From Campylobacterales bacterium (GTDB lineage: Bacteria; Campylobacterota; Campylobacteria; Campylobacterales; JALSKU01): DNA of 36,833 nucleotides. The stretch is from positions 1-36,833 of the forward strand of contig JALUBK010000012.1 in assembly GCA_027044945.1 (NCBI GenBank). The letters run 5' to 3'. The translations under genes were made by a program, and so were the position numbers. Of this stretch, positions 237 through 31,201 are shown one piece after another; the stretch's first letter is position 1; each line of letters opens with the position of its first letter. The notes under the pieces are model-generated. The model saw only the letters and a list, made by a program, of their open reading frames with translations, ran no database searches and was not told the origin of the DNA.

Positions 237-2120
237 TTGTTTATTTTTGATTCTTTATCCATACTATTTTTATTTTTAATTGTTTTGGGTGCTGTGCCAA
301 ATATGTTTTATTCTTTTGGATACACAAAAGGTTCTAAAAGAAATGTATATTATTATATACATTATTTTGGTTTTATTCTGTCCATGATGGGGGTTGTTGT
401 ATCAAATAATCTTTTGTTGTTTCTTTTCTTTTGGGAAGTCATGAGTCTTACTTCTTGGCAACTTATTTTAACAAATCCAGAAGAAAAATCAACAAGAGAT
501 GCTGCAAAATTTTATTTTTTTATGACACATTTTGGCTTTGTTTTTTTACTTCTTTTTTTCTTGATCATTTCAAATGGAAATTTGAATATAAACTTAAATG
601 AAGCACAAATTATAGCAAAGAATTTTGCATATCCTACTTTATTATTTGTTTTTATGAGTTTTGGATTTTTAAGCAAAGCAGGAGTTGTTCCTTTTCATGT
701 ATGGCTTCCTTATGCCCATCCCGAAGCTCCAAGTGCTGTGAGTGCATTGATGAGTGGAGTTATGCTGAAAGTTGCGATTTATGGTCTTTTTAGATTTTTA
801 TTTTATGTGCTTTATCCTTGGCCTCTTGAGTGGAGTATAATTATTTTGACACTCGGTTCTTTATCTGCTTTGGTAGGTGTTTTATATGCTCTAAGCGAAC
901 ATGATATAAAAGCCCTTCTTGCAAATCACTCTATAGAAAATATAGGTATTATTTTGATAGGTTTTGGAATGGGTATGATATTTGATACTTTGGGTCTTCA
1001 TGCATTGAGTAGTTTTGCTTTTATTGCGGCACTTTTTCATACATTTAACCATATGAGTTTCAAATCTCTTTTATTTATGGGTGCAGGAAGTGTTTTGCAT
1101 CAAACTCATACAAAAAATATGGAAAAATATGGCGGTCTTATCAAAACTATGCCAATAACAGCTTTAACATTTTTATTGGCATCAGTTAGTATTACCGCTT
1201 TACCGCCGACAAATGGATTTTTGAGTGAATGGATGATTTTTCAATCAATGCTATCATCAAGTCATATTAATACTTTATCTTTAAAGATTTCAATTCCTTT
1301 TGCTATTTTTGCTTTGGCTCTAACTGGTGGATTGGCAATAGCCTGTTTTGTAAAAGCTTATGGAATAACATTTTTAGGATTACAAAGAAGTGTAAATGCT
1401 AAACACGCCAAAGAATCAAATATTTTTATGCAAATTGGTATGATTTTGATGAGTTTGGTTATCATATCTTTAATGTTAATTACCCCTTTTTATATAAAAC
1501 TTTTCGACAAAGCTACATCAGGTCTTCATCAAGTTCATATTTATAATGATATTTTTAAAGGTGGTTTTTTAAATATTCATTCTATCAGCGATAATGGTGG
1601 AGTTGTGAGCCCTATTATTTTACTTATAGCATTATTAGTAATCGTTTGGGTTATTTATATTGCTTATAAAAGTTTGAAACTTCCTGTAAGGATAAAAAAT
1701 TCTTGGAGTTGTGGCAATAAACTTACAAGTAGAACACAATATTCTGCCACAGGTTTTGCTGGTCCTATTAGAAGATTTTTTAGTTGGCTTTATCACCCAA
1801 AAGAACATTTTCAAAAACAAATTATTCATGGACACGAAACAAAATTTTCAACTTCGCTATATGAAGTTCATGTTGCACCTTTATTTGAAAAATCTCTTTA
1901 TAAAGGAACAAAAAATTTAGTTAATAAAATAAGTTATTTTGTTTATAAACTAGCACATTTTGAGCAAACAAGATATTCTGCTATTATTTTTAATCTTATG
2001 CTTAGTGTTTTATTTGGTTACAGGATAATTGCACATAGTTTTAGTTGGTCAATGTTTGCTTTAGAGATAATTATTCTTATAGCATCGGTAAAAATATTAA
2101 TTATTGGAGATAAAAAATGA
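237..2120 (+). CDS. hyfB: HyfB-like proton-pumping membrane subunit (NuoL family) of a hydrogenase-related complex
   Basis: This 627-residue polytopic protein belongs to the NuoL/HyfB/MrpA antiporter-like family and would form an ion channel in the membrane arm. Most of the chain is hydrophobic helix. Family signatures are the Lys/His/Glu-rich segment with PFHVWLPYAHPEAPSAVSAL near residues 150-170, the following GVMLKVAIYG helix, and ANHSIENIGIILIG near 225-240. The C-terminal third is more polar before a last pair of hydrophobic segments. The length is close to E. coli HyfB (about 670). I take the TTG at 237 because GAGG (225-228) lies 8 nt upstream. The frame stays open upstream to about 150 without an ATG, so a longer protein is possible. 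The gene overlaps hyfC by 4 nt (ATGA), which implies translational coupling. Confidence 0.9.
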   Translation: MFIFDSLSILFLFLIVLGAVPNMFYSFGYTKGSKRNVYYYIHYFGFILSMMGVVVSNNLLLFLFFWEVMSLTSWQLILTNPEEKSTRDAAKFYFFMTHFGFVFLLLFFLIISNGNLNINLNEAQIIAKNFAYPTLLFVFMSFGFLSKAGVVPFHVWLPYAHPEAPSAVSALMSGVMLKVAIYGLFRFLFYVLYPWPLEWSIIILTLGSLSALVGVLYALSEHDIKALLANHSIENIGIILIGFGMGMIFDTLGLHALSSFAFIAALFHTFNHMSFKSLLFMGAGSVLHQTHTKNMEKYGGLIKTMPITALTFLLASVSITALPPTNGFLSEWMIFQSMLSSSHINTLSLKISIPFAIFALALTGGLAIACFVKAYGITFLGLQRSVNAKHAKESNIFMQIGMILMSLVIISLMLITPFYIKLFDKATSGLHQVHIYNDIFKGGFLNIHSISDNGGVVSPIILLIALLVIVWVIYIAYKSLKLPVRIKNSWSCGNKLTSRTQYSATGFAGPIRRFFSWLYHPKEHFQKQIIHGHETKFSTSLYEVHVAPLFEKSLYKGTKNLVNKISYFVYKLAHFEQTRYSAIIFNLMLSVLFGYRIIAHSFSWSMFALEIIILIASVKILIIGDKK

Positions 2121-3049
2121 ATTTAATATATTATTTTTTTTCTATTTTTTTTCTTGCTTTGATTTCTCCTTTGATTTTAGGTTTTATCAAATCATTTAAA
2201 ATGTGGCTTTTGTTTAAAAAACCAGTTTCTATTTTTCAGCCATATAAAAACTTTTTAAAACTTTTTTCAAAAGAAGTTATTATTAGCGAAGAAGCAAGTG
2301 CCATAACAAGAGTTGCACCTTTTTTGATATTGGCTCCGTTGGTTTTAGTATTATTTTTCTTGCCTCCTATTTTTAAAGGAAGCTATTATGTAAGTTTTGT
2401 TGATGCTTTTACAATAACTGGTTTAATGTCTCTTTCAACTTTCTTTTTGATGCTTTTGGGGCTTGATAGTGGTAATAGTTTTGGGGGTATTGGCTCTAGT
2501 AGAGAAGCTTTTATATCAGCTTTGGTTGAACCAGCCATGGTGCTTACTATTTTCAGTTTATCTCTTATGGCAGGCAACTTAGGTGTCGCAAAAGCAGCAG
2601 TAAATTTAAATAATTATTTTCCATCAAATCATATGGCAAGTTTTGTTTTTGCTTTTATCAGTTTTTTTATTCTTTTGTTAGCTGAAACTGGTCGAATTCC
2701 AGTAGATAACCCTGAAACACATTTGGAACTTACAATGGTTCATGAAACAATGATACTCGATGTTAGTGGAGCTTATTTGGGAATTGTAGAAATTGCAGGT
2801 TCTTTAAAATTTATTATTTTTGCCTCTTTGTTCGCTTCATTATTTTTGCCTTTTGGTTTAAGTTCCAATCCCTTGATATCATTTGTCTTTTTTGTTTTTA
2901 AGATTTTTTGTATAGCAGTTGCTGTTGCTTTGGTAGAAACAAATATGGCAAAACTTAGACTCTTTAAAGTTCCAAATCTTTTAGGTGTTGCTATTGTTTT
3001 TGCTTTTTTAAGCTTGATTAGTTTTTATGTTTTAGGAGGAGTTAAGTGA
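2117..3049 (+). CDS. hyfC: HyfC/HycD-like membrane anchor subunit (NuoH family)
   Basis: This 310-residue membrane protein is of the NuoH/HycD/HyfC family, which joins the Fe-S module to the pumping subunits. It has about eight hydrophobic segments. The conserved loop RIPVDNPETHLELTMVHE (about residues 193-210) is the family hallmark facing the small subunit. The length matches HyfC/HycD (about 310-320). The ATG at 2117 overlaps the hyfB stop and the gene end overlaps the next start, so the operon is tightly coupled. Confidence 0.92.
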   Translation: MNLIYYFFSIFFLALISPLILGFIKSFKMWLLFKKPVSIFQPYKNFLKLFSKEVIISEEASAITRVAPFLILAPLVLVLFFLPPIFKGSYYVSFVDAFTITGLMSLSTFFLMLLGLDSGNSFGGIGSSREAFISALVEPAMVLTIFSLSLMAGNLGVAKAAVNLNNYFPSNHMASFVFAFISFFILLLAETGRIPVDNPETHLELTMVHETMILDVSGAYLGIVEIAGSLKFIIFASLFASLFLPFGLSSNPLISFVFFVFKIFCIAVAVALVETNMAKLRLFKVPNLLGVAIVFAFLSLISFYVLGGVK

Positions 3050-3642
3050 TTGATTTTTTTATAGGATTATTTTTAGCAAATCTTATAATAGCACTTTTTA
3101 CAACAAGACTTTATAGATTGCTCGTATGGTATAGTTTAAACTCTATTTCTCTTGGTATAACAGCTATATTAATAGGTAAAAATTTGCATGATGTTGCTAT
3201 GATAATAACTGGTTCTATAACAATACTTTTAAAAGGTATAGTTGTTCCTTATGTATTAAAAATTTTGAGTAAAAGATTTATTTTAAAAAGACAAGTGCAA
3301 CCAAATATCAAAACACCTTATTCTGTTATGCTAATCCCTGCTGTCATAGTTTTTACTTTTTACTTGACTGCACCGATTGTTCATATGATAGGAGGCAATC
3401 AAAATTATGTTGCTATTTCCATTGCTTCTATGTTTTTATCTCTTATTCTAATGTTAGAACATAAACATATAGCTCCTAAAATTGTAGGTTTTTTGAGTAT
3501 GGAAAATGCACTTTTTTTGCTAAGTATCAGTGCTACTAATGGTATGCCGATGCTTATTGAGCTTGGAATATTTTTCGATTTATTGATGGCGATTGTTGTT
3601 ATAAATTTATTATTTAAAAAAGAGGAAATGCAAAATGTTTGA
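3046..3642 (+). CDS. hyfE: HyfE-like membrane subunit (NuoK-related)
   Basis: This 198-residue protein has about six hydrophobic helices and little else. Size, hydropathy and position between hyfC and hyfF fit HyfE, whose C-terminal part is related to NuoK. It would form part of the membrane arm. The start is a GTG at 3046 that shares bases with the hyfC TGA stop, and a strong AGGAGG (3034-3039) sits just upstream, which decides the start. The end overlaps hyfF by 8 nt. The sequence itself has few diagnostic residues, so context carries much of the call. Confidence 0.8.
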   Translation: MIDFFIGLFLANLIIALFTTRLYRLLVWYSLNSISLGITAILIGKNLHDVAMIITGSITILLKGIVVPYVLKILSKRFILKRQVQPNIKTPYSVMLIPAVIVFTFYLTAPIVHMIGGNQNYVAISIASMFLSLILMLEHKHIAPKIVGFLSMENALFLLSISATNGMPMLIELGIFFDLLMAIVVINLLFKKEEMQNV

Positions 3643-5041
3643 ATTTCTGGCTCCCCCAATTATTATTTTTTTAGTTACATTTTTTGATATTCAAAAAGTA
3701 AAAAAAATTGTGCCTTTTATAGCATTGTTGATACTTTTTCCTACTGTTTTATCTTTTTATAAAGGCGATATTCATTATTATGGTGATATTTTCATATTGA
3801 ACAATTTATCAAAATATGTTTTATTAGTATCATCTATTGTTGGAATAGGTATTTCTCTTGCTCTTGTAAATTTGGATAAACATGTTAGCATATCCCAAAA
3901 TGCTTATAAAAATTTTTATCGTTTTTTTGCTCTATTTTGGATAGGTCTTACTGTTTCAATTTTATCAAACAATATGGGTGTTTATTGGATTGGATTGGAA
4001 ATGGCAACTTTAAGCACAGTTTATATGATAAAAACAAATGCAACTTCTTCAACGCATAAAGAAGCTTGGAATTATATGATTGTTGGAGCTATTGCGGTAT
4101 CTTTGATTTTGTTTGGCATTATTCTTATATATGCAAGTGCAAAGCCATTGCTTGGCGAAAATGCTATGAATTTTTCTATGCTTTTAAAATCAGCAAAAGA
4201 GATAAAAAATAGTTATTTGTTTGAAATAGGATTTGCTTTTGTTGCTGTTGGAAGTTTTATAAAAATGGGTTTTTTCCCTATGACATTATGGCTTGCAAAT
4301 ATAGAAAGAGCATCATTTTATCCAGTTGCCGCCCTTTTTAGCGGTATTTTGGAAAGTGCTATTATGATAGGATTTTTCAAATTTTCAACTATAGCAAAAG
4401 AGATAAATTATTCACATTTGATAGATTTTAGTTTTATATATATTATTTTAACTCTTTTTGTTATATCTTTTTTAATTTACAGAGTGAAAGATTTTATGAG
4501 ACTTTTTAGTTTAAGTGGTATTGAGCATATGGCTATTATATCCATATTTTGGGTTAGTGGTGCACATTTTGCAGCACTTTTGCATTTTGGGGCTCATGCT
4601 TTTTTAAAACCTGCACTTTTTCTTTCTACAGGTGTTTTAGAATCTAATGGTAAATACCATATAGCAGGTGCTTTAAGAGGATATAGCGGTTTTAAGGGTA
4701 AAAGTTTTGTTTTCATTGTATCTCTTTTGATGCTGGCTATCATTTCTCTTCCTCCAAGTCCTATGTTTTTCAGTGAAATTTATGGATTTGGTTCTATGAT
4801 AAAATTAGCAAAAAATTCCGATCACTTAATAATCATGCTTTTTGGCATAGGGGCTTTATTGATATTTTTATCTATCATATTTTATAAATTTATAGAAGTT
4901 TATCAATCCATGAAATATGAAGGAATTGAAAATAAAAAAGTTGTTTATAGCTCAGAATTATTTGCTTTGATGATTTTTTCCGCATCTACACTTTCGTTAC
5001 TTTTGCCAAAAGTATTTAATTTTCTTGAGAGTATAGGATGA
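3635..5041 (+). CDS. hyfF: HyfF-like proton-pumping membrane subunit (NuoN/NuoM family)
   Basis: This 468-residue polytopic protein is of the proton-conducting transporter family (NuoM/N, HyfF) and would be a second antiporter-like channel beside HyfB. Signatures are the YWIGLEMATLSTVYMI segment with the charged helix residue (about 120-135), FIKMGFFPMTLWLANIERASF (family KxGxxPxHxWLPxA region, with the usual His replaced) and HFGAHAFLKPALFLSTG (about 315-331). It is shorter than E. coli HyfF (about 526). The start overlaps hyfE. A 34-nt gap separates it from hyfG. Confidence 0.88.
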   Translation: MFEFLAPPIIIFLVTFFDIQKVKKIVPFIALLILFPTVLSFYKGDIHYYGDIFILNNLSKYVLLVSSIVGIGISLALVNLDKHVSISQNAYKNFYRFFALFWIGLTVSILSNNMGVYWIGLEMATLSTVYMIKTNATSSTHKEAWNYMIVGAIAVSLILFGIILIYASAKPLLGENAMNFSMLLKSAKEIKNSYLFEIGFAFVAVGSFIKMGFFPMTLWLANIERASFYPVAALFSGILESAIMIGFFKFSTIAKEINYSHLIDFSFIYIILTLFVISFLIYRVKDFMRLFSLSGIEHMAIISIFWVSGAHFAALLHFGAHAFLKPALFLSTGVLESNGKYHIAGALRGYSGFKGKSFVFIVSLLMLAIISLPPSPMFFSEIYGFGSMIKLAKNSDHLIIMLFGIGALLIFLSIIFYKFIEVYQSMKYEGIENKKVVYSSELFALMIFSASTLSLLLPKVFNFLESIG

Positions 5042-5075
5042 TAAAGAATATTTGTATTAAAGCGAGGATAAAACT

Positions 5076-6440
5076 ATGAGATTTATTGCAAGATTTGCAA
5101 ATGACAATGGAGATAATTTTGAAATAATAGATATTTATGAAAATAAAACAGAAAGAACTGTTGTTGATAAAAATAAACCAATTATTAAAAGCATTACAAA
5201 AAAATATCCTGGTGCGATATGGTTTGAAAGAAAAATAAAAGATGATTTTGGAATCGAATTTGAAGGTAGTTTTGACAATAGAGTATTAAATCATCATGAA
5301 AGATTTCCCGATATACATCCAATGAAAAAAGATTTTAATCAAAAAGAGATAGACTTTAGTGAGCCTAAACCATATAAATATGAAGTTATAGACGGCGATG
5401 GAGTATTTGAAGTATCTGTTGGTCCAATTCATGCTGGTATTATTGAGCCAGGACATTTTCAATTTTCACAAGAAGGGGAAAATATACTTCATTTGGAGGT
5501 TAGACATTTTTACACATACAAAGGTATTGAAAAAATGTGTGAAAATAAAAAACCTTTAGAAATCTTTTCTATTATTGAAAAAATAAGCGGTAAAGACTCT
5601 CTTGGTTATCAAAATGCATATTTGAATATTTTAGCACAAGCAACACATCAAAATATTCCATTGAATATAAAAAAATATAATGCTTTGTTATTGGAAATTG
5701 AAAGATGTGCCAATCATATAGCTGATTTGGGTGCTATTCCAAATGATGGTGGTTTTGCTCCTGCTTTAGCATTTTGTTCTAAAAAAAGTGAAGAGTTGAA
5801 AAGAATTTTGCAAACTATTTGTGGCCATAGATTTGGCTTTGGAGCTATTAGAGGATATTCAAAAGAGTTTGATAAAAATAAAATAATTACTTTTTTTGAT
5901 AATCTTGAAAAAGAGATGAAATGGTTTGAGGATTGGATTATAGACATACCATCTCTTTGGGACAGACTTGATACAACGGGAATTTTAACAACTCAAAATG
6001 CTATAAAATATTCTTGTGTAGGAGTTATGGCAAAAGCTAGTGGTGTTGAAATGGATACAAGAAATAATAATTTTTATAAAGAACACGGTTTTATTCAGCA
6101 AAAAGAAAAAACAGGAGATGTTGCTGCTCGATTTAAAATAAGATTGAAAGAAGTTTTTAATTCTATCGAAATGATTAGAAATTTTATAAATTTTGAAGAA
6201 AAAAAAATTGAATTTAATGAATTTTTTGATGGAGAATATTATTCTTTTGTTGAGAGTTCTATTGGCGAATTATTTATGTTTGTGAAAATAAAAAATGGTG
6301 TTATAGACAGATTTTTTTCTAGAGATCCTAGCTTTTTAAACTGGCAAGCATTGCACACTATGATGAGTGGCAATATTATGGCAGATTTTCCTCTTATCAA
6401 TAAAAGTTGTGATTTAAGTTATGCCGGTAATGATTTATAA
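5076..6440 (+). CDS. hyfG: HyfG/HycE-like large subunit lacking the Ni-Fe ligands (Ehr-type)
   Basis: This 454-residue protein fuses a shortened NuoC-like domain (about 1-85, with YPGAIWFERKIKDDFGIEFEG) to a NuoD/hydrogenase large-subunit domain. In true group 4 [NiFe] hydrogenases the active site is held by an N-terminal RxCGxC and a C-terminal DPCxxC. Here the matching places read EKISGKDS (168-175) and DLSYAG (446-451), so the four ligand cysteines are replaced by Ser171, Asp174, Ser448 and Gly451. Fold motifs such as LLLEIERCANHIADLGAIPNDGGF (205-227) remain. The protein therefore cannot bind Ni-Fe in the known way. It matches energy-converting hydrogenase-related (Ehr) complexes, which are thought to couple another redox reaction to ion pumping. 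The redox partner is not visible here. Confidence 0.88.
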   Translation: MRFIARFANDNGDNFEIIDIYENKTERTVVDKNKPIIKSITKKYPGAIWFERKIKDDFGIEFEGSFDNRVLNHHERFPDIHPMKKDFNQKEIDFSEPKPYKYEVIDGDGVFEVSVGPIHAGIIEPGHFQFSQEGENILHLEVRHFYTYKGIEKMCENKKPLEIFSIIEKISGKDSLGYQNAYLNILAQATHQNIPLNIKKYNALLLEIERCANHIADLGAIPNDGGFAPALAFCSKKSEELKRILQTICGHRFGFGAIRGYSKEFDKNKIITFFDNLEKEMKWFEDWIIDIPSLWDRLDTTGILTTQNAIKYSCVGVMAKASGVEMDTRNNNFYKEHGFIQQKEKTGDVAARFKIRLKEVFNSIEMIRNFINFEEKKIEFNEFFDGEYYSFVESSIGELFMFVKIKNGVIDRFFSRDPSFLNWQALHTMMSGNIMADFPLINKSCDLSYAGNDL

Positions 6441-6470
6441 AATTATGAATGTTGAATGTAAAGGGATAAA

Positions 6471-6962
6471 ATGATACGATTTTGGCAAAAAAGATTTGCA
6501 GAAGGTATAAAAACTGAAAATCTTGAAATAGATAATGAATTGGAAGAAATAAAAAAAGAATTAAAAGAAAGTATTAGTAAAAACTTTGCCGGAAGTCTTG
6601 CTATTAGATATGTAGATAGTGGTAGCTGTAATGCCTGTGGAGCTGAATGCGGGGCTCTTTCAAATCCTTATTATGATCTTGAAAGACTTGGGATTTATTT
6701 TGTAGCAAGTCCAAGACATGCAGATGTTTTACTTGTAAGCGGTGTAAATACTGTCAATATGTCGCACCATTTGATAGAAGCTTATGAACAAGTTCCTTTT
6801 CCAAAATGGGTTATAACATTAGGAGATTGTCCTTTTGAAAAGAATTTTGCTATTAAAAAAGATATAGATAAAATATTGCCAGTTACTCATCATATCAAAG
6901 GTTGTCCTCCTGAGCCTAAAGAGATTATAAAAGGATTTTTGCAATTTTTGAAAAAAATTTAA
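6471..6962 (+). CDS. hyfI: HyfI/HycG-like small Fe-S subunit (NuoB family)
   Basis: This 163-residue NuoB/HycG/HyfI-type subunit carries the proximal [4Fe-4S] (N2-like) cluster. The ligands are visible as CNAC (Cys53, Cys56), Cys120 in LGDCPF and Cys145 in KGCPPEP. An additional Cys60 sits in GAECGAL. Unlike the large subunit, this electron-transfer protein keeps all expected ligands, so the complex probably still carries electrons. The ribosome site AAGGG lies just upstream of the ATG. It is the last gene of the operon. No hyfD, hyfH (ferredoxin) or hyfA is seen in the window. Confidence 0.9.
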   Translation: MIRFWQKRFAEGIKTENLEIDNELEEIKKELKESISKNFAGSLAIRYVDSGSCNACGAECGALSNPYYDLERLGIYFVASPRHADVLLVSGVNTVNMSHHLIEAYEQVPFPKWVITLGDCPFEKNFAIKKDIDKILPVTHHIKGCPPEPKEIIKGFLQFLKKI

Positions 6963-7032: not shown

Positions 7033-7650
7033 TTGCAAAACCTCACAGATAAAGCATTTTATTTTATATCAGGACATGGTAGGGGGTGGGTATTTTCATC
7101 AAAAGATTTACTAGGAAAATTTAGTCGTTCACAAACAGATAATCTTCTTTGTGAGCTTGTTAAACAAGGTAAGATACGCCGTATTGCTCGCGGTATTTAT
7201 GATTACCCCAAGTATAGTAAATTGCTCAAGCAGACTATGAGTCCAAATATTGACCAAGTAGCTAGAGCTATTGCTAGAAAATTTAATTGGCATATTGAAA
7301 TTTCCGGTGAAAGTGCACTTAATATATTAGGACTTTCTACTCAAATTCCTGCTAAATATATATATCTTAGCGATGGTCCAAATAGAAATTACGATATCAT
7401 GAAAACAATGCTCGAATTTAAAAAATCTTCTTTAAAAAATATCGGTTTTAAATATAAAGAGAGTTCGCTTATTGTGCAGGCACTCAAAGCTTTAGGGCAA
7501 GAGCATATTACTGAAGTGATTATTAAAAAAATTCGGCAACAAATAGATGAAAACATGTATGATAAGATACTCAAAGACACACAAATATCAACTTCATGGA
7601 TTTATGAAGTCATAAAAAAAATATTTAAAAAAGAGATAAACGGTGAATAA
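7033..7650 (+). CDS. abiEi: AbiEi-type antitoxin (type IV toxin-antitoxin)
   Basis: This 205-residue protein resembles the DUF6088/AbiEi antitoxin family. The N-terminal winged helix (about 1-70) contains KDLLGKFSRSQTDNLLCELVKQGKIRRIARGIYDYP, with the typical 'G.I.R..RGIY' wing. The part around HIEISGESALNILGLSTQIP (about 86-106) is the start of the C-terminal domain. AbiEi proteins repress their own operon and counter the AbiEii toxin. The start is TTG at 7033, chosen for AAGGA at 7022-7026. The gene overlaps the toxin gene by 8 nt. It follows a terminator, so it likely has its own promoter. Confidence 0.85.
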   Translation: MQNLTDKAFYFISGHGRGWVFSSKDLLGKFSRSQTDNLLCELVKQGKIRRIARGIYDYPKYSKLLKQTMSPNIDQVARAIARKFNWHIEISGESALNILGLSTQIPAKYIYLSDGPNRNYDIMKTMLEFKKSSLKNIGFKYKESSLIVQALKALGQEHITEVIIKKIRQQIDENMYDKILKDTQISTSWIYEVIKKIFKKEINGE

Positions 7651-8638
7651 AGTTGCAAATCTCTCGAATAAGGAGAGAAAAGAACTTTTTTGGGAGACTG
7701 CTAACTTGATGGGTATTCGTCCTGCTATTGTAGAAAAAGATTTTTGGGTAGTTTGGGTTTTAGATAAGATTTTTTTGGACAATAAATTAAATAAGATCTT
7801 AATGTTTAAAGGCGGAACATCACTTTCTAAAATATTTAACTTAATTGGCAGGTTTTCTGAAGATATTGATTTGATCCTTGATTGGCGAGAAGTAGCAGAA
7901 GAAGATCCTAAAGTGGATAGAATTTCTAAAAATCAACAAGTTAAATTTAATGAAAAGGTTAATAAAAAAGCACTTATTTATATTGAACAAAAGTTATTTC
8001 CTATTGTAAAAAAAATTGTTTCTCCTTTGTGTAGTTGCAAAATAGATATAGATAATCCATATAATATTAAAATAATCTATCCTGCTGCTTTTGAAGATGC
8101 TTATTTAAGAACAGAAATTTTACTAGAGATTGGACCTTTGGCATCTTGGTTACCATCAGGCTATTTCGAGATTGAATCATATGCAGCTAAACAATTTCCT
8201 ATTGTTTTTAAAAGAACCAAATGTAAAGTTAATGCTATTGTTGCTAAAAGAACTTTTTGGGAGAAAGCAACTATTTTACATCAAGAATCAAATAGAATCT
8301 TAAGCAAACCTTTGCCACCAAGGTATTCACGCCACTACTATGATCTTGCGGTTATGGCAAAATCATCAGTTAAAACAGAAGCATTAATAGATATGCAACT
8401 ATTAGAACAGGTAGTATCTTTTAAACAAAAATTTTATCCTGCTGCTTGGGCGAAATTTGAAGATGCTAGGCCAGGAAGTTTTAAGCTTTTACCTTCTGTT
8501 GAGCGTATAAATGAATTAAAAAAAGATTATAAGGCAATGGAACATATGATTTTTGATAAAGCTCTTAGCTTTGAAGAAATATTAAAAATAATTAAAGATT
8601 TAGAAGATGAAATAAATACTGTGCAGTGGTCTAATTAA
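7643..8638 (+). CDS. abiEii: AbiEii-type nucleotidyltransferase toxin
   Basis: This 331-residue protein is of the AbiEii/AbiGii nucleotidyltransferase family, known as the toxin of type IV systems and linked to phage abortive infection. The NTP-binding core reads MFKGGTSLSKIFNLIGRFSEDIDL: a GGTSLSK loop followed by the D-x-D metal pair EDID (about 54-77). Further family features are the RTEILLEIG strand and KRTFWEKATILH (about 199-210) and RYSRHYYDLAVM (about 228-239). The start is a GTG at 7643 inside the antitoxin end, which points to coupled and low-level translation. All key motifs are intact. Confidence 0.9.
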   Translation: MNKVANLSNKERKELFWETANLMGIRPAIVEKDFWVVWVLDKIFLDNKLNKILMFKGGTSLSKIFNLIGRFSEDIDLILDWREVAEEDPKVDRISKNQQVKFNEKVNKKALIYIEQKLFPIVKKIVSPLCSCKIDIDNPYNIKIIYPAAFEDAYLRTEILLEIGPLASWLPSGYFEIESYAAKQFPIVFKRTKCKVNAIVAKRTFWEKATILHQESNRILSKPLPPRYSRHYYDLAVMAKSSVKTEALIDMQLLEQVVSFKQKFYPAAWAKFEDARPGSFKLLPSVERINELKKDYKAMEHMIFDKALSFEEILKIIKDLEDEINTVQWSN

Positions 8639-11420: not shown

Positions 11421-12422
11421 TTAATTTAAAGAGGAGATGAAATTTTTTATTTTTTCTTTAGAATATTGCAATGAATCATTATAAATACTAACTATGTGAT
11501 CGCCCCTATGTTTATAAACTTTATCATAATATTTTTCGAGTAAAATTGAGGCACATTTTTGCAAATCTTTTTGATAAAAAGATGTTATAATTTCATTTAA
11601 ATATTTTTTTTCTATATAGGGTCTTATTTTTTCTATTGCTGTTTCAAAAAAAACTTCATCAATGTTTTTATAATCTTTTATGATTCTTTGAACTCTATCT
11701 TTTAGCGATGCTTCTATCCATATTCGAGGTGCTTTTAACATTTTTTGATGCAATCTGTGAGGAACATGTAGCTTTCCTATTTTTTTGCTTTCCCCTTCTA
11801 TTAGGATATATTTATATTTTTCCATTTTTCTTAACTGATGAAAGATACTGTTTTGAAATTGTTTTGTGCTTGGTTGTTCTCCGTTGATTTGTCCAAAGCT
11901 TGAACCATAATGGTTGGCTAATTTTTCAAGATCTATTTTATTTTCAAACTCTCTTATGATTTCACTTTTTCCGCTTCCTGTGAGTCCATCAAGCACCAAA
12001 AAATTATCATATTCGAAAGTATCAAGATAATCCAAAACATAATTTCTGTAAGCTTTGTATCCGTTTTTAAGTTTATAAACTCTAAATCCTATGTTCGATA
12101 AAACAGTTCCGAAAGAACCACTTCTTAATCCTCCTCTTGAGCAATATAAAAAGATTTTTGTTTTTGGTGTGATATTTGCGAGTTTGTTTTGCAAATGGAA
12201 ACTGATATTTTTACATATCAAAGAAGCTCCTAACATTTTTGCCTTAAAAGGTGATTGTTTGTAAAGAGTGCCTACTTCTTCTCTTTCTTTATTATTTAGC
12301 GAATAAAGATTTATGCTACCTATGATGTGAGATTGGTCGAATTCTTCAGGACTTCTTGTATCTATCAATATAAAATCTTTATCCATTGAGTCCAAAAAAA
12401 TTTTTATATCCAATTCTTTCAT
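11421..12422 (-). CDS. mnmH: tRNA 2-selenouridine synthase MnmH (SelU)
   Basis: This 333-residue enzyme replaces sulfur by selenium in 2-thiouridine at the wobble position of certain tRNAs, using selenophosphate and a geranyl intermediate. It has the two expected domains. The rhodanese domain (about 1-130) carries the catalytic Cys94 in YCSRGGLRSG. A P-loop domain has GLTGSGKS (146-153), followed by the family segment NHYGSSFGQINGEQPS. The length is normal. It lies 42 bp downstream of the tRNA-Sec gene on the same strand and is probably transcribed with it, so selenium-related genes are grouped. The ATG is at 12422. Confidence 0.93.
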   Translation of the reverse strand: MKELDIKIFLDSMDKDFILIDTRSPEEFDQSHIIGSINLYSLNNKEREEVGTLYKQSPFKAKMLGASLICKNISFHLQNKLANITPKTKIFLYCSRGGLRSGSFGTVLSNIGFRVYKLKNGYKAYRNYVLDYLDTFEYDNFLVLDGLTGSGKSEIIREFENKIDLEKLANHYGSSFGQINGEQPSTKQFQNSIFHQLRKMEKYKYILIEGESKKIGKLHVPHRLHQKMLKAPRIWIEASLKDRVQRIIKDYKNIDEVFFETAIEKIRPYIEKKYLNEIITSFYQKDLQKCASILLEKYYDKVYKHRGDHIVSIYNDSLQYSKEKIKNFISSLN

Positions 12423-12464: not shown

Positions 12465-12564
12465 TGGCGAGAGGGTGGAGGAATCGAACCTCCCTTCGCA
12501 ACTGACACCAGCACAAACAAACGGGTTTGAAGCCCGCGGTGTCCACCAGGATCACATACCCCCC
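12465..12564 (-). tRNA. selC: Selenocysteine tRNA (anticodon UCA)
   Basis: A 100-nt minus-strand tRNA gene with an encoded 3' GCCA. The anticodon loop CUUCAAA, on a G/C-rich stem, gives anticodon UCA, which reads UGA as selenocysteine. The T arm is GGAGG-UUCGAUU-CCUCC and a long variable arm is present, as in tRNA-Sec and unlike normal tRNAs. Pairing is imperfect: the acceptor starts with six G, giving two G-U pairs and a mismatch near its base. The D stem pairs as GTG/CAC plus TCC/GGA with one unpaired A, and the variable arm needs one unpaired base. The exact 5' end is uncertain by 1-2 nt. Confidence 0.88.
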
Positions 12565-29981: not shown

Positions 29982-30203
29982 ATGTGCTATCAAAAAATAC
30001 AGAGATTATTAACTTCTATTGTGCTTGGAATAAATTTATTATTTTTTATAATTGGTTTACAAGGTAATCAAATAATATTTAAAATCGCAATTATATTTCA
30101 AGTTTTTGTCATAATTATGTTAGTTATTTGGGCATTTACAAATTTTTGTCCTTCTATTTGGTTTTTGAAAAAAATATTTCCACCTTGTAATTGGAAGGAA
30201 TAA
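29982..30203 (+). CDS. Small two-helix membrane protein, unknown function
   Basis: This 73-residue protein has two hydrophobic helices (about 10-28 and 32-52) and a short conserved-looking tail FCPSIWFLKKIFPPC with two cysteines, plus Cys2. The C-P...P-P-C tail suggests a redox or metal role and loosely recalls DUF2892-type proteins, but I do not recognise the family for certain. A strong AAGGAGGA precedes the ATG. The stop lies 2 nt before the purM ATG, so it is likely the first gene of the purM run. Confidence 0.65.
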   Translation: MCYQKIQRLLTSIVLGINLLFFIIGLQGNQIIFKIAIIFQVFVIIMLVIWAFTNFCPSIWFLKKIFPPCNWKE

Positions 30204-30205
30204 TC

Positions 30206-31201
30206 ATGAGTAAAATTAGTTATAAAGATGCTGGTGTTGATATAGATGAAGGTGCTAGATTTGTTGAAAAGATAAAACCGTATGTCAAACAAACATTTGA
30301 TAAAAATGTTTTAGGAGGCATTGGTTCATTTGCAGGAGCTTATGAACTTCCATCTGGTTATAAAAAACCTGTTATTTTAGGAGCAACTGATGGAGTTGGC
30401 ACAAAATTAAAACTTGCCATAGAAGCTAAAAAATTTGATACTGTGGGTATAGATTTGGTTGCTATGTGTGTTAATGATCTTATTTGTAACTTTGCAACTC
30501 CTATGTTTTTTTTAGATTATTATGCAACCGCAAAATTATTGGTAGAAGAAACTGCTACTGTTGTAAAAGGTATAAGTGAGGGATGTTTACAAAGCGAATG
30601 TGCTTTAATCGGTGGAGAAACTGCCGAAATGCCGGGAATGTATAAAAAAGATGATTTTGATTTGGCAGGATTTGCAGTTGGAATTGCTGAAAAAGATGAA
30701 CTTGATAGAATCAATAAAGTAAAAGAGGGGGATATTTTAATAGCACTTCCTAGTTCTGGAATTCATTCAAACGGTTTTTCACTTGTAAGAAAATTATTTT
30801 TTGAAAAACTCAAACATAATTTTAATGACGAAATAGATGGAAAGAAATTGATAGATATTCTTTTAGAACCTACAAAAATTTATGTTAAAACTTTTAAAAA
30901 GTTAAAATATTATATAAATGCCTTGGCACATATAACAGGAGGTGGACTTATAGAAAATTTACCTAGAGCATTACCTTCTCATTTGACAGCAGTTATTCAA
31001 AAAAATGATATTAGAGTTTTACCTATTTTTAAATATATGCAAAAATATATAGATGAAACTGAAATGTTTAGAACTTTTAATATGGGTGTTGGTATGGTTT
31101 TAATCGCAAATAGAGAAAATTTGGATTATATTTTACAAAATTCTCAAGGATATGTCATAGGATATGTCAAAGCTGGAAATGAAAAAATAAAATTAGTATA
31201 A
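30206..31201 (+). CDS. purM: Phosphoribosylformylglycinamidine cyclo-ligase (AIR synthetase)
   Basis: This 331-residue ATP-dependent enzyme closes the imidazole ring in purine synthesis. The N-terminus [20 protein letters not shown] is the family signature. [27 protein letters not shown] and [19 protein letters not shown] are conserved ATP/substrate segments. I choose ATG 30206, which has GGAAGGA 7 bases upstream. A TTG 15 nt earlier would add five residues and is less likely. Length and order are normal. Confidence 0.94.

Follow-up and report, generated by a model that had tools for sequence, protein, structure and literature searches.

An energy-converting hydrogenase-related complex without Ni-Fe ligands in a Campylobacterales bacterium

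What can a membrane complex of the hydrogenase type do when the ligands of its Ni-Fe site are missing? This question is raised by a six-gene operon, hyfB-C-E-F-G-I, at positions 237-6962 (+) of contig JALUBK010000012.1 from a Campylobacterales bacterium (assembly GCA_027044945.1, listed as 100% complete). The window, meaning the whole stretch of DNA analyzed, is 36,833 nucleotides long. A first-pass annotation, made from the sequence alone, described an energy-converting hydrogenase-related (Ehr) machine that couples a redox reaction to ion transport, and the open reading frames stand at the positions it gave. Pfam and NCBIfam matches agree with the HyfB, HyfC, HyfE, HyfF, HyfG and HyfI families. 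Ehr complexes have already been described as having lost the Ni-Fe ligands, and their function is unsolved (PMC6349859, PMC10284858, PMC10432482, PMC7304191). The assignment of the window complex to Ehr is supported by its subunit set, the loss of all four ligands, the pump and E-channel residues that it keeps, and its phylogeny.

Profile alignment of HyfG with HycE (chain 7z0s_E, E=2e-57), which is free of gaps around both ligand motifs, places HycE C241, C244, C531 and C534 on S171, D174, S448 and G451. Residue numbers in this chain exceed those of HycE by 12, which fits the His-tag insertion reported in PMC9474812. The four replacements are those read by the first-pass annotation, and the alignment puts no other cysteine at the ligand sites. 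C445 was considered as a displaced ligand and rejected, since some orthologues have Phe at this position, as do the family's intact hydrogenases (SFELCYxC). When the window HyfG was aligned with 15 orthologues from the order (54-68% identity, n=16), none of the four cysteines was found in any of the 16 sequences, and S171, S448 and G451 were invariant. Across 26 Campylobacterota rows, one of which ends before the last two sites, no ligand site holds Cys; 25 of the rows have Glu at position 174, where the window has Asp. Because the pattern is common to relatives and the reading frames are intact, the loss is no accidental decay of a single gene. AlphaFold2 modelled HyfG with confidence (mean predicted local distance difference test score 92.8), and among solved structures the model again matches HycE 7z0s_E best (TM 0.93).

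Formate hydrogenlyase (FHL-1)/hydrogenase-4 of E. coli (HycE, HycD, HycC, HycG; 7z0s) is the closest solved structure for HyfG, HyfC and HyfB. Work on FHL assigns E193, H188, H284, E437, R395 and D529 of HycE to proton transfer and coupling (PMC9474812), and this set is kept in HyfG as E124, H119, H214, E359, K320 and D446, respectively. The window complex differs from the E. coli enzyme in lacking the Ni-Fe ligands, HycB/HycF-type ferredoxin subunits and FdhF. HyfG is without the four Cys ligands that mark a group 4 [NiFe] hydrogenase, and the operon, with its left flank judged from relatives, is without the linked formate dehydrogenase and HycB/HycF-type subunits of a formate hydrogenlyase. 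The beta1-beta2 loop of HyfG is invariant among orthologues, and residues 118-123 have the lowest confidence in the AlphaFold2 model, a pattern that a mobile coupling loop would show. A further change was found at the canopy Arg (HycE R478), which is Ile or Leu in 26/26 Campylobacterota rows (I396 in the window) and Arg in 63 of the 64 other family members, intact and cluster-free alike. The former Ni-Fe pocket is therefore less polar in Campylobacterota.

The small subunit does keep its four [4Fe-4S] cysteines, as first annotated. C53, C56, C120 and C145 of HyfI align with hydrogenase-type CxxC spacing, the CxxC loop aligns to MbhJ without gaps, and all four residues are present in every Campylobacterota HyfI row examined. 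The site is therefore under selection. An N-terminal ferredoxin domain with at least six cysteines is found on HyfI in 8/11 rows of the cysteine-bearing (intact-hydrogenase) set. Many Ehr loci of Acidobacteria and ammonia-oxidising archaea retain this domain with a reduced number of cysteines, and it is gone in the Campylobacterota, Nitrospira and gammaproteobacterial rows. Since the FHL-type ferredoxin subunits and the fused domain are both absent, electrons can enter only from a separate protein.

Both pump subunits had been called complete. This is correct for the channel residues, which are kept in HyfB (E67, K147, K178, K225, E331) and HyfF (E122, K210, H321, K325, E381), but not for the length of HyfB. 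Campylobacterota HyfB lacks 71-75 N-terminal residues, corresponding to helices 1-2, compared to NuoL and to most Ehr from outside Campylobacterota. A missed upstream start or a separate small frame supplying these helices was rejected, as most relatives have in-frame stops a short distance upstream. Residue mapping showed that the E-channel glutamates of HyfC are kept as well (E130, E138, E190, E200, E204, E210). Two loci have a tandem pair of hyfB genes ahead of the operon (L048 4558-8340 and L062 2910-6682), and in one single-contig genome hyfF and hyfG are apparently fused into one 931-aa frame (L049 6756-9551).

The orthologue alignment was used to scan named genomes, which yielded more than 580 loci for relatives, and 90 large subunits were aligned. 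All four Ni-Fe cysteines are present in 12 of these, two in one, and none in the rest. In the tree, the cysteine-bearing members form one group (support 84/84) and the Campylobacterota, at the end of a long stem, form a single clade (100/100). Nitrospira, Thaumarchaeota, the candidate phyla radiation (CPR) and the window fall in one group apart from HycE. The tree took in lineages with published Ehr and left out the published reference sequences themselves. Because the deep order within this group is not settled, the number and order of losses can only be inferred. The HyfG with two cysteines (S, C, S, C at the four sites), from a Desulfosporosinus metagenome-assembled genome (L137 4406-5824), is nested among intact relatives and is possibly an independent ligand loss in progress.

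Published Ehr of Nitrospira, ammonia-oxidising archaea, Margulisbacteria and CPR resemble the window complex in the kinds of subunits and in Ni-Fe ligand loss. The Campylobacterota members differ in their long stem, the canopy Ile/Leu, Glu/Asp at the C244 site and HyfB without helices 1-2; a HyfI without the ferredoxin domain is a trait that they share with the Nitrospira and gammaproteobacterial rows. Judged by the canopy residue and the short HyfB, the Campylobacterota Ehr is a distinct variant in sequence. We found no published description of these traits and no paper joining Ehr and Campylobacterota; most subscription journals were outside this search, making it weak evidence of novelty. 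A comparative study named group 4 "Hyc" hydrogenases, a label we give as used there, in two Sulfurimonas species (PMC7952632). Two genomes that belong to the same genus also encode a distant second complex in which the Ni-Fe ligands are missing, with the order C-E-F-G-I-B (L146 4311-11846, L147 738-8276). Its HyfG has the motifs SERTAGTT and TLGLSVAEND, and its HyfI has a reduced ferredoxin domain along with all four cysteines of the cluster.

In some relatives, the loss goes further. The cluster cysteines of HyfI are also gone at seven loci (all four at six of them, three at L133; Table 1), where HyfG has no Ni-Fe ligands. The hosts are metagenome-assembled genomes of methanogens, Chloroflexota and CPR (Methanoregula, Methanosarcina and Dehalococcoidales, together with Moraniibacteriota and Magasanikbacteria). 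The Ehr complexes encoded there are apparently free of metal, and their pump subunits are intact. Since they keep the same pump residues, members of the family may not all depend on a redox reaction; the coupling proposed at first is plausible for the window complex.

Window base 1 is the start of the contig, and the left flank of the operon is visible only in relatives. Clustering of open reading frames at about 95 loci, including relatives with left flanks, showed no gene beyond the six subunits to be widely shared around the operon, and a conserved neighbor was thus rejected as the redox partner. Foreign genes stand between hyfF and hyfG at two loci, encoding an MFS transporter (L039) and an AAA/DUF4143 protein (L040), and at L046 hyfI lies several kb away from the rest of the operon. 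In a single genome from the same genus (G004, L039 5988-8969), the Ehr operon is adjoined by arsenite-oxidase-like genes, for a Rieske and a molybdopterin subunit. They were rejected as a partner, being found in no other relative.

As the most likely mechanism, we propose electron exchange between the lone cluster of HyfI and a soluble carrier of low potential, with ion transport driven by a non-H2 substrate in the former Ni-Fe pocket. HyfC, HyfE, HyfF and HyfB would form a complex I-type proton or sodium pump. The cytoplasmic arm, HyfG and HyfI, has no Ni-Fe site, no built-in ferredoxin relay and one [4Fe-4S] site at the HyfG-HyfI interface, which we take to be occupied. The carrier, a ferredoxin or flavodoxin, may dock at the position of the former ferredoxin domain and exchange electrons with the cluster. 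Of the redox partners suggested at first, ferredoxin thus survives in one form, as a soluble carrier docking straight onto HyfI. The cluster would in turn exchange electrons with the substrate, which is probably hydrophobic, with menaquinone as the first candidate. Protonation through E124 and the H214/E359/K320 path would move the mobile beta1-beta2 loop, coupled via the E-channel of HyfC to HyfF and HyfB, and the system may run in either direction.

We give this proposal a probability of about 0.42. Counted in its favor were the retention of the HyfI cysteines and of the proton-path, E-channel and antiporter residues, the absence of a ferredoxin domain and of a conserved neighbor, and the replacement of the canopy Arg. 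Several results weigh against it. Neither a redox partner nor a substrate was identified in the flanks of relatives or in genome searches. The quinone residues of complex I are not in HyfG, where the positions of Nqo4 His38 and Tyr87 are I123 and G172. Respiratory complex I (NuoD/Nqo4) has its fold and coupling elements in common with the window complex, which differs in lacking this His/Tyr pair, NuoI and the NADH module and in having CxxC instead of CC in HyfI. The cluster-free loci keep the pump residues and most of the HyfG pocket, and because such members keep the pump, the cluster of HyfI could be structural. Lastly, the search patterns (P[IV]HAGIIE and PGHF[QH]FSQ) bias the loci that were found and so account in part for the invariance of H119-H127 outside Campylobacterota.

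The strongest rival explanation is a non-redox ion antiporter or small-molecule transporter, in which the hydrogenase-like arm is a ligand-binding gate and the cluster is structural or a redox sensor. The seven cluster-deficient members, which keep the subunit set and the pump residues after losing the Ni-Fe ligands and at least three of the four HyfI cysteines, argue for it. So do the family pattern, which suggests stepwise loss of redox centers, and the lack of a linked electron partner. In the Campylobacterota, however, no HyfI row has lost any of the four cysteines, the proton path to the former Ni-Fe site retains its residues, and we consider this explanation rather unlikely for the window complex. 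A related and slightly more doubtful idea concerns the family as a whole. Ehr may be a hydrogenase that decayed stepwise, losing the Ni-Fe site, the ferredoxin relay and, in some lineages, the last [4Fe-4S] cluster, with the pump under selection throughout. It would now be a redox-free or merely redox-gated ion transporter, with the Campylobacterota complex, having a single orphan cluster and no canopy Arg, at a late stage.

Another possible explanation is a sulfane sulfur reductase resembling membrane-bound sulfane sulfur reductase (MBS), in which the HyfI cluster itself reduces polysulfide. The named relatives come from sulfur-metabolising genera, the source genome has three PhsA/PsrA-like molybdopterin enzymes, and the rest of the family has a more polar pocket. 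Pyrococcus MBS/MBX has also lost the Ni-Fe site and kept the pump. In MBS, the CxxC loop is three residues shorter, so that one Fe is open, and two of the four MbsL cysteines are kept (PMC7684303). The HyfI loop, in contrast, is not shortened relative to MbhJ, and HyfG has no cysteine at any ligand site, including those of the MBS pair C85 and C385, so that four cysteines rather than two were lost. HyfG E124 is present, whereas its equivalent, MbhL E21, is reported absent in MBS, and the subunit set is Hyf and not Mrp/Mbx. Of the reactions suggested in the first annotation, sulfur chemistry of the MBS type is therefore improbable.

Formate was also suggested there, and a complex of formate dehydrogenase with Ehr has been proposed for other lineages (PMC6349859). 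Partner candidates were compared in 60 genomes of relatives, 17 with Ehr and 43 without. Proteins of the formate dehydrogenase/dimethyl sulfoxide reductase family are present in 50 of the 60, with no co-occurrence with Ehr (p=0.26, ignoring kinship). The source genome has a truncated FdhA/NasC-like fragment at one end of contig C46, but no full-length formate dehydrogenase above the curated cut-off, and no HycB/HyfA-type link subunit or dehydrogenase is conserved near the operon in relatives. A formate dehydrogenase-Ehr complex is thus even less probable than a sulfur reductase. Nitrogenase was rejected as a ferredoxin user, as nifH is found in 0/17 Ehr genomes. Complex I lacking NuoF was considered as well; NuoF is present in 3/17 Ehr genomes and 19/43 others, which is no significant association (p=0.076, ignoring kinship).

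The source genome has other Ni-Fe hydrogenases on contigs C25 and C43 and a Coo-type group 4 arm with intact ligand motifs (CSLC/DPCISC) on C48. The C48 arm is of another type and is not linked to the window operon, which has no linked intact Ni-Fe catalytic subunit. Its operon (L056 7798-12546) encodes a small subunit with a ferredoxin domain, NuoC, the large subunit, a CooF-like protein, HypA and a GltD/NfnB-like protein. No CooM or CooK was found beside it or elsewhere in the genome, and the window operon holds the only non-Nuo membrane subunits found there. The same arm likewise lacks membrane subunits at L162, L165 and L166 and has them in two other genomes (G039, L164; G053, L163); the membrane-less form is possibly a soluble group 4 hydrogenase. 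That Ehr is the missing membrane arm of the C48 hydrogenase is very improbable and was rejected, because three other genomes (G030, G022 and G027) carry the membrane-less operon with no Ehr, and most Ehr genomes have no C48-type hydrogenase.

To the right of the operon, domain matches identified an AbiE-type toxin-antitoxin pair and a cytochrome c/DUF3373 pair, both of which stand outside the Ehr system. The former, a DUF6088/AbiEi-like antitoxin and an AbiEii-like nucleotidyltransferase, lies directly 3' of hyfI at 7033-8638 (+). Further along the window are a tRNA-Sec at 12469-12564 (-), adjoining a gene for a rhodanese-domain protein, SelU-like by domain, at 11421-12422 (-), and an AIR-synthase-type gene, a candidate selD, at 30191-31201 (+). 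These could point to selenium use in the source genome.

Table 1. Positions of the operon genes and HyfG sites in the window and of HyfI homologues without the cluster cysteines at other loci
Feature	Positions	Strand	Description
hyfB	237-2120	+	TTG start; NuoL/M-like antiporter subunit; PF00361 7e-58; closest solved HycC 7z0s_C 1.5e-63
hyfC	2117-3049	+	NuoH/HycD-like subunit; PF00146 2.7e-33; HycD 7z0s_D 1.4e-30
hyfE	3046-3642	+	Small membrane subunit; NF008556 hydrogenase 4 membrane subunit 3e-11
hyfF	3635-5041	+	NuoN-like antiporter subunit; PF00361 3.5e-19
hyfG	5076-6440	+	Large subunit (30 kDa + 49 kDa domains), no Ni-Fe ligands; PF00346/PF00329
HyfG S171 to D174 codons	5586-5597	+	HycE C241/C244 sites
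HyfG I396 codon	6261-6263	+	HycE canopy Arg R478
HyfG S448 to G451 codons	6417-6428	+	HycE C531/C534 sites
hyfI	6471-6962	+	Small subunit, one [4Fe-4S] site, no ferredoxin domain; PF01058 3e-19
HyfI homologue, L079	3771-4301		All four cluster Cys lost
HyfI homologue, L087	11373-11885		All four cluster Cys lost
HyfI homologue, L094	11303-11827		All four cluster Cys lost
HyfI homologue, L088	4105-4647		All four cluster Cys lost
HyfI homologue, L092	4112-4651		All four cluster Cys lost
HyfI homologue, L108	3791-4333		All four cluster Cys lost
HyfI homologue, L133	4118-4660		Keeps one cluster Cys

Ehr is a known family, of which the Campylobacterota carry their own variant, and the lead of greatest interest is the set of relatives without a cluster. 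The role of Ehr matters in several groups, including nitrifiers, soil Acidobacteria and CPR. The Campylobacterales variant would offer a place to test Ehr function, as cultured isolates exist in the order. The loss series leads to testable statements about the need for the single cluster and about ion movement by the cluster-free relatives. If it is true that the pump works without redox centers, this would bear directly on how the arms of complex I are coupled, because a redox-free pump would separate coupling from electron transfer.

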